From assembly GCA_027858745.1 (NCBI GenBank), contig JAQICB010000018.1:1-39985 (forward strand): 39,985 nt of DNA. The letters are read 5' to 3'. The notes under the pieces are model-generated. The model was not told the origin of the DNA. It searched no databases and was given only the letters and a program-made list of their open reading frames with translations. Shown in pieces: positions 1 through 25,938 of the stretch (positions within the stretch are counted from its first letter, which is position 1; every line of letters starts with the position of its first letter). This stretch comes from Bacteroidales bacterium. Its GTDB lineage: Bacteria; Bacteroidota; Bacteroidia; Bacteroidales; UBA1715. Position numbers and translations under genes: made by a program.

Positions 1-169
1 AAAAAGTATGCTTTGCGTAAAAAACAGTTTTTCTGCGTTAAATTATTTCACAATAGCTCGCTATTATTCAATAATTTGCCTTGATAAACAGCTTTTTATA
101 TCAACCGAGGACAAAGGACGAGCTCAGCGGAGCTAATCCGAACTCGAAAAATTACGTCGAACTCAGGTT
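1..169 (-). repeat. Dispersed repeat element, copy A (cut by window edge)
   Basis: Intergenic repeat, read on the minus strand relative to copies B and C. It starts at the terminal motif AACCTGAGTTCGA (reverse complement at 157-169) and runs to the window edge, so its far end is not seen. It shares with copy C the segment from the terminus to about GATATAAAAAGCTG. It shares with copy B a longer segment that includes an interrupted palindrome at 40-77 (AAATTATT arms around AATAGC/GCTATT). It ends 15 bases downstream of the acyl-CoA dehydrogenase stop codon. No gene is seen in this stretch. The similarity was read by eye; the mobile nature is inferred. Confidence 0.8.
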
Positions 170-11687: not shown

Positions 11688-11821
11688 AACCTGAGTTCGA
11701 CGTAATTTTTCGAGTTCATATTGATATAAAAAGCTGTTTATCAAGGTAAATTATTGAATAATAGCGAGCTATTGTGAAATAATTTAACACAGAAAAACTG
11801 TTTTTTATGCATAGCATACTT
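11688..11821 (+). repeat. Dispersed repeat element, copy B
   Basis: Begins with AACCTGAGTTCGA (11688-11700) flush against the cls remnant. It continues as the inverted match of copy A as far as about GCATACTT, after which similarity stops. Compared with copy A it lacks about 35 bases between CGAGTTC and TTGATATAAAAAGC. It keeps the interrupted palindrome (11748-11785). No second AACCTGAGTTCGA terminus is seen on the right, so the right boundary is approximate. The rest of the gap up to 11952 is AT-rich, with no gene and no clear -7 box. Confidence 0.8.
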
Positions 11822-20432: not shown

Positions 20433-20600
20433 CCACTATCTAAAGATTTTATCGTGCGTATGCAAACTGACGATTTACTTTTGCGAGAATTTGAGTTACC
20501 CGATAAACAAGGCTTTTTCAAAAATAATTTTTCTTTACTTTTGTTCAATACATATTTTTCACACACACCGGATACAACATTATTGTTCAAAATATCACAC

Positions 20601-20634
20601 AAAAAAAGGTCAGACATACATCTGACCTTTTTTT
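20601..20634. terminator. Bidirectional intrinsic terminator between nadE and secA
   Basis: A perfect 14-bp inverted repeat, A7-GGTCAGA and TCTGACC-T7, surrounds a six-base loop (CATACA). It has T-runs on both strands, so it can end nadE transcripts from the left and secA transcripts from the right. On the secA side it lies beyond repeat copy C. Confidence 0.9.
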
Positions 20635-20639
20635 ATATA

Positions 20640-20763
20640 AACCTGAGTTCGACGTTATTTTTCGAGTTCAGATTAGCTCCACTGAATTCGTTCTTTGTCC
20701 TCGGTTGATATAAAAAGCTGTTTATACGCGTTCTGATCCTAAAAAATTATATCGAACTCAGGT
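20640..20763 (+). repeat. Dispersed repeat element, copy C, with two inverted termini
   Basis: 124 bases bounded by AACCTGAGTTCGA (20640-20652) and its exact inverse TCGAACTCAGGTT (20751-20763). The next dozen bases inward are also similar as inverted copies (CGTTATTTTT against TATAATTTTT). The left 90 bases match copy A; the right 35 bases are not found in A or B. The size, the paired termini and the lack of coding capacity look like a MITE, but no target-site duplication is convincing. It lies between the secA stop (13 bases away) and the terminator at 20601-20634. Confidence 0.85.
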
Positions 20764-20776
20764 TATAAAAGATTAT

Positions 20777-25920: not shown

Positions 25921-25938
25921 TAGAATTCAGGTTAATAA
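25921..25938 (-). repeat. Solitary degenerate terminus of the dispersed repeat
   Basis: TAGAATTCAGGTTAATAA matches copy A's end plus flank (TCGAACTCAGGTTAATAA at 157-174) at 16 of 18 positions. No element body is attached. It lies 29 bases downstream of the stop of the minus-strand esterase. The rest of the gap 25844-25967 shows nothing else, and no terminator is obvious. Confidence 0.5.

Follow-up and report, generated by a model that had tools for sequence, protein, structure and literature searches.

A short element with inverted ends lies near position 20,640 of the window, the whole stretch of 39,985 nucleotides analysed here, and raises the question of what it is, what moves it and what its interior may be for. 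An earlier note had taken it for a MITE or an intergenic repeat (copy C) with two further copies, A and B, in the same window. The 13-mer AACCTGAGTTCGA that marks its ends occurs exactly at 157-169 (minus strand), 11688-11700 (plus), 20640-20652 (plus) and 20752-20764 (minus). Copy C therefore does have the exact 13-bp inverted ends ascribed to it, with the second 13-mer ending at 20764 and not at 20763, and the same terminus stands, as claimed, at one end of both copy A and copy B. Versions of the 13-mer with two mismatches at 25921 and 32892 are at chance level (shuffles: mean 0.78, largest 4), and no element was seen around 25921.

The insertion proper of copy C is best read as 20641-20763 on the plus strand, with TATAA on both sides as a target-site duplication (left 20636-20640, right 20764-20768, neither assigned a strand). 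It is an internally deleted MITE in which the left ~80 bp are joined to the right ~45 bp and the interior arms are gone, and it belongs to a 125-bp length class of five copies, four of which are consistent with loss of consensus 82-252 and a TTTAT repeat at the junction. It matches R1, a covariance model built from 11 elements among which this genome is not represented, through the terminal stem (E 1.7e-9). Copy C sits at the edge of a terminator-like hairpin (20595-20640, no strand assigned) between the converging NAD+ synthase and secA genes; this hairpin comes from a consensus scan only, which found 2 against 0.5 expected. Copy B (11688-11821, plus strand) is one-ended, with the left end present, the right end missing and one hairpin arm retained at 11722-11811. 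The earlier note had it short of about 35 bases; what it lacks is about 30 bases (consensus 36-65), which are also missing from other copies in this genome and from relatives of 263-268 bp elsewhere. Copy A (1-169, minus strand) has its left end at 169 and is 99% identical to consensus 1-168. Its body reaches the contig start and its far side is unbounded, cut by the assembly, because the contig, C145, begins at window position 1; the 3′ end of an acyl-CoA dehydrogenase-like gene (matches below curated cut-offs) adjoins it. What had been called a private right third of copy C proved to be how the full-length element ends on the right, a part missing from copies A and B, and the interior differences between copies are largely deletions within one element.

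The 2.92-Mb draft genome (169 contigs) has 172 occurrences of the 13-mer and none of its reversal, which bears out the suspicion that the family is abundant. By the next letter, 79 of these ends are followed by C ("left") and 92 by T ("right"); all 172 were recovered, 171 of them with flank. Against a 296-base consensus typed by eye from printed copies, 40 of 232 candidates were scored: 10 copies match positions 1-296 at 93-98% identity, and 3 further copies match at least 276 bases at 89-98%. The full element, of about 296 bp with 13-bp ends and without a transposase, is thus short, bounded by terminal inverted repeats and present in many copies, as MITEs are defined. A single deletion accounts for 11 of 24 shorter two-ended copies with no more than 7 mismatches and 4-11 repeated letters at the junction, where random junctions have a mean of 0.85 repeated letters and 5 or more in 1.3%; for several of the 24 a single deletion is a poor fit and further changes are required. 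The same length can be found at separate sites (113 bp at two, 125 bp at five, 219 bp at two), and therefore either deletion derivatives move or the same deletion recurs. A 35-bp palindromic form also exists in this genome. Many contigs begin ~102-118 bases from an element end, and the element accounts for many breaks of this draft genome.

Two observations concern sequences joined to the element. Two contig ends of G000 carry ~70 bp of right-end sequence and then pass into an interior of another kind that both have in common (AATTAATAAAGTTTATGCCGGGGATTATAT); this points to a longer element with that end which is missing from the assembly. A repeat of ~38 bp (one strand reading ATGAACCGAAGTACAAAGTACGAGCTCAGCGGAGCTAA) is found in G011, a genome of the same family (L104-L108, ~1501-1540), apparently at gene starts as judged by eye. 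The ~32-bp extra piece of this genome's MITE resembles that repeat at 88-89%; might it be a captured gene-start repeat?

The flanks define the target. Two-ended readings were those with a second end within 330 bp and at most one mismatch, or the 35-bp form. Identical 5-bp flanks were found in 18 of 42 such readings, among which at least two sites are counted twice through different choices of right end, and identical flanks of 4, 6 or 7 bp in 0 of 42; on this count a duplication of 5 bp is preferred to one of 3 bp. The 3-bp core matches in 18 of 42, against 3.0 expected from mismatched flanks. Because T stands at -4 in 96% of 171 flanks, the target is read as TNNNA, with the outer A/T of AACC...GGTT part of it. 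Under this assignment, which we infer from the flanks, the ends of the element would be ACCTGAG...CTCAGGT. The search that had been proposed for boundaries and target-site duplications has in this way yielded both boundaries and a 5-bp duplication. The duplication is found in 2 of 10 copies of at least 285 bp and in 16 of 32 shorter ones (35-264 bp), so recombination of full-length copies or their faulty assembly may be the cause. A simple ORF call on the flanks has the 172 ends facing the 3′ end of a gene in 94 cases and the 5′ end in 46, with an ORF running up to the element in 25 and 7 unusable; gene 3′ ends thus face copies about twice as often as 5′ ends.

The 5-bp TNNNA duplications, together with an IS982 insertion sequence that has exactly these termini in a related genome, make it very probable that the element is a non-autonomous transposon (MITE) of the IS982 family. 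That insertion sequence (G088, locus L251) is 1043 bp long, has both termini exact and is flanked by AAT/AAT. Its 299-aa transposase matches the IS982 model NF033520 (E 5.7e-82; 275 bits, cut-off 130) and PF13612 (E 2e-72). It was among 60 stretches fetched around places of the AACCTGAGTTCGAYDWAW type; AACCTGAGTTCGAYDWAW occurs in 36 of 393 genomes of the order, with 0 for the reversed control among the matches listed. On the Segatella copri plasmid NZ_CP137558.1, an annotated IS982 transposase (WP_218413470.1) has AACCTGAGTTCGGGATAAG at both ends and ATT on both sides, and this terminus agrees with the 13-mer at 12 of 13 letters. G334 carries a 1029-bp insertion sequence with a frame change that disrupts its transposase and with flanks that differ from each other. 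The full-length, transposase-bearing relative that the earlier note had asked for therefore exists in other genomes, and the MITE reading is strengthened by the many ends, the 5-bp duplication and IS982-family insertion sequences whose termini are identical or almost so. The IS982 family is described as having inverted repeats with 5′-AC ends (PMC7335449), and ACCTGAG...CTCAGGT has such ends, given the proposed assignment of the outer A/T. The present element differs from that family in lacking a transposase; the word MITE occurs 0 times in the main text of the review (PMC7335449).

Among 14 genomes of this bacterium's family, the 13-mer occurs in G013 (18 copies) and G006 (one copy) and, apart from the present genome, is absent from the others. 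All 18 copies in G013 lie within 190 bases of a contig end, and many lead into fragments that by eye resemble the ends of IS982 transposases; taken alone, these fragments were too short to match family models. The IS fragments at the G013 loci (L110-L127) agree over their first ~34 bp and then continue into one of two left interiors; in L119 and L126 the start of the transposase is missing, and these two may have some other cargo. A search of 18 genomes with the G088 protein matched six (G001, G079 weakly, G088, G149, G215 and G334). In G149 AACCTGAGTTCGA stands beside an IS982 gene, in G215 there are versions with one or two changes, and in G001, of the same genus as the present genome, a C-terminal IS982 fragment is followed by AACCTGAGTTCGG. 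By eye, three IS982 elements (L209, L261, L242) seem to have a hairpin that ends at the start codon, for example AAGGATT...AATCCTTATG, possibly hiding the ribosome site.

In the present draft assembly no autonomous IS982 and no match to the G088 protein was found; the only DDE-type ORF (358 aa) reaches 50 of 130 bits, far below the IS982 cut-off. Since the assembly breaks at these repeats, this absence weighs little. With no IS982 gene assembled, the enzyme would act in trans: an IS982 transposase supplied from elsewhere would cut at 5′-ACCTGAG and paste the element, and the parental IS may be missing from the draft assembly or extinct. An active IS982 in this genome would have AACCTGAGTTCG ends.

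The interior has relatives of its own. G202, G235, G187, G215 and G387 contain elements of 263-268 bp whose ends are identical to those described here or close to them, and which align end to end with the 296-bp element except for a ~32-bp insert in the latter. By eye, they fold as a terminal stem with two long arms that are roughly inverted copies of each other. R1 was run on 149 genomes each from the order and the class and matched 10 in either set with E of at most 0.001, the present genome being counted in both; below 1e-9 there are only 6 and 8 genomes, respectively, again with this genome in both. Some of the weaker matches (L304, L278) share little beyond the terminal stem. The element is patchy, most sampled genomes having none, and copy counts are lower bounds, both in the present genome, with its 40 scored candidates, and across genomes, where 13 candidates were scored per genome under stricter filters. 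The body also occurs under other terminal repeats: AACGTCAACTCGACG in G002, AAGGGGACTTCTATTAATTC in G088 (with variants in G079), AGGGCACCTCTAATAATTC in G533 and G501, AGGGAATCTCTAATAATTG in G424, AACCTCTGATAATTC in G466 and AAGCTGAACAGGTGAGG in G453. In three loci (L280, L273, L286) extra pieces of ~20-27 bp lie, by eye, inside arm 1, as if the arm accepts insertions.

The exact pattern of the arm-2 tip is found in 53 stretches of GTDB contigs, 35 of which were taken further. The complete chromosome of Draconibacterium orientale FH5T has a 266-bp element with flanks AAT/AAT, and the tip also occurs in Marinifilum, other Draconibacterium, Prolixibacteraceae, a Flavobacteriaceae MAG and other Bacteroidota. 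Together with the S. copri relative, these named records point to a place for the present genome in the Bacteroidales (class Bacteroidia). Outside these groups it is found in 21 contigs of one Candidatus Delongbacteria MAG and under one Chlorobiota and one Desulfobacteraceae label, which reflects either real transfer or binning error. Two examined contigs (L350, L330) of the Candidatus Delongbacteria GH39 MAG (JAQIDD01, L320-L370) have AAGGGG-type ends. Viral contigs of IMG/VR gave no exact match to two patterns, and phage and plasmid collections gave none to the Draconibacterium element in a distant blastn search. Against Rfam 15, eight element loci gave only two miRNA matches (E 0.34 and 0.47), far below gathering scores, and a scan of the window gave one tRNA only.

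Several comparisons bear on whether the two-armed fold is conserved. RNAalifold predicted 87 pairs on 11 elements, 49 of them with compensatory double changes. When the structure predicted for G202b was applied to 12 aligned elements (alignment A4), 82.0% of cells were paired. Shuffles gave 64.4%, with none of 500 reaching the observed value, and sliding the partners by 1-3 columns gave 37-48%; 78 of 108 pairs were changed on both sides; the structure of G215 gave 82.2%. In a larger alignment (A5) of 26 chosen elements the corresponding values were 82.5%, 62.7% (0 of 500) and 36-48%, and 92 of 107 pairs had a change on both sides. Relatedness by itself can lift sequences above their shuffles, and a structure derived from a single row has some advantage over its slid versions; with so wide a margin and such a range of lineages, this is unlikely to be the whole explanation.

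Rows of A4 and A5 were chosen for full or nearly full length, with at most two per genome (two from G202 in both alignments, two Marinifilum loci in A5). From the present genome both alignments contain a single 264-bp copy (L271), which lacks the ~32-bp insert; G062 (L274) appears in A4 alone. A5 excludes weak matches, near-duplicates and copies that are truncated or carry inserts, among them L214-L216, L223, L228, L243, L244, L252, L256, L263, L273-L290, L292-L295, L297, L301, L303-L305, L328, L333, L335, L337, L353, L355, L359, L360, L363 and L369. A kissing loop between the arm tips (CGGG with CCCG) was dropped as a general feature: by eye, these tips occur in G202a, G235, G187, G215, G002 and G404, and the arm-1 tip differs in G202b, G108, G088, G079, G424, G466 and G453.

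What such a fold does is a matter of weighing readings. It would most likely act in RNA, for which we see about an even chance, and a transcript reading through from either side would meet the same kind of hairpin first. This hairpin could block read-through or stabilise the end of the upstream mRNA, making insertions tolerable. More broadly, and tentatively enough to fall short of an even chance, the element may represent a mobile structured RNA (or folded DNA) family of Bacteroidia and perhaps beyond, with a body that is selected for its fold, has been combined with several termini, has spread as cargo and acts in read-through transcripts in either direction. Copies without arms, such as copy C, persist with their target-site duplication and count against a role in RNA. 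The serious rival is maintenance at the DNA level with no RNA role, by template-switch correction of quasi-palindromes or as a cruciform for host or transposase, which would leave the stems complementary without selection on a transcript. This, too, is possible rather than probable. Consistent with it, G-U cells do not exceed shuffles, and the opposite G-U/A-C excesses of the two arms appear at about the same size in shuffles, so this asymmetry follows composition; conservation is the same in paired as in unpaired arm columns (0.66 in both), which like the G-U count speaks against a loop-specific or RNA-specific role, many elements match R1 on either strand, and the one element tested folds strongly as DNA (z -5.9). 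Correction should, however, erase internal loops, yet the architecture persists under different terminal repeats. The arm-2 tip also argues against it and for some constraint on sequence: TANCYCGNTA stands in 26 of 26 rows of A5, of which only 16 of 16 are unbiased because ten named rows (and no row of A4) were found with a pattern containing the tip, and one copy of the present genome (L042) deviates. We place most weight on a role in read-through transcripts.

The body could instead be conserved because transposition needs it in cis, for example as a site for the transposase or a host factor. It does accompany the termini, and length varies little, most intact relatives measuring 255-297 bp. 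No such body was seen, however, in the IS982 elements examined that have these ends, R1 gave only three weak right-end matches on 9 loci with whole or partial IS982, and duplications flank half of the copies below 285 bp, even if these may be deletions in place; a cis role is accordingly unlikely. High copy number, mostly intergenic placement and palindromic structure, down to the 35-bp form, would also suit a REP- or ERIC-like repeat with no IS to move it, but the 5-bp duplications and the termini held in common with IS982 insertion sequences largely refute this very improbable reading.

The kind of element is already known, since MITECca01 has been published and one end of MITE239 is nearly the same. 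MITECca01 of Cardinium is a ~240-bp MITE derived from the IS982-family ISCca4 in a Bacteroidota genome; as described in the available text, it differs in being unique to one strain and in retaining a little parental sequence (PMC9769881). MITE239 of Porphyromonas gingivalis, listed with MITE700 and ISPg3, is likewise a MITE group in a Bacteroidales genome, named for its length and present in ~10-20 copies (PMC4596501). Its printed end ACGTGAGTTCGATATAAAGGAA differs from ACCTGAGTTCGATATAA of the present element at 1 of 17 letters and its other printed end at 3 of the first 12, as far as the printed ends go (PMC4596501). ISPg3, which matches MITE239, is assigned to IS5, and the portion of the source at hand describes no conserved fold (PMC4596501). 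The MITE239 terminus had no match in viral contigs; the weak R1 matches L304 and L278 carry it with other interiors. BrickBuilt and MITEPgRS, also of P. gingivalis, are MITE-like and intergenic, and long stem-loops are predicted for BrickBuilt, but both have other termini (GAGACC...) and internal tandem repeats (PMC4596501). In the open-licence PMC literature, as far as its accessible text goes, no account was found of the present element, of its fold or of one body under different termini.

What merits further attention is the two-arm body and its conservation. MITEs usually pass for the remains of decaying transposons, and compensatory change across distant genomes is the kind of signal by which functional structured RNAs are called. 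Here compensatory change keeps an elaborate fold in one MITE body, across distant genomes and whichever terminal repeats surround it. Model R1 also serves to search for such elements elsewhere. If the fold is functional, the family would offer a direct test of why such elements are tolerated beside genes.
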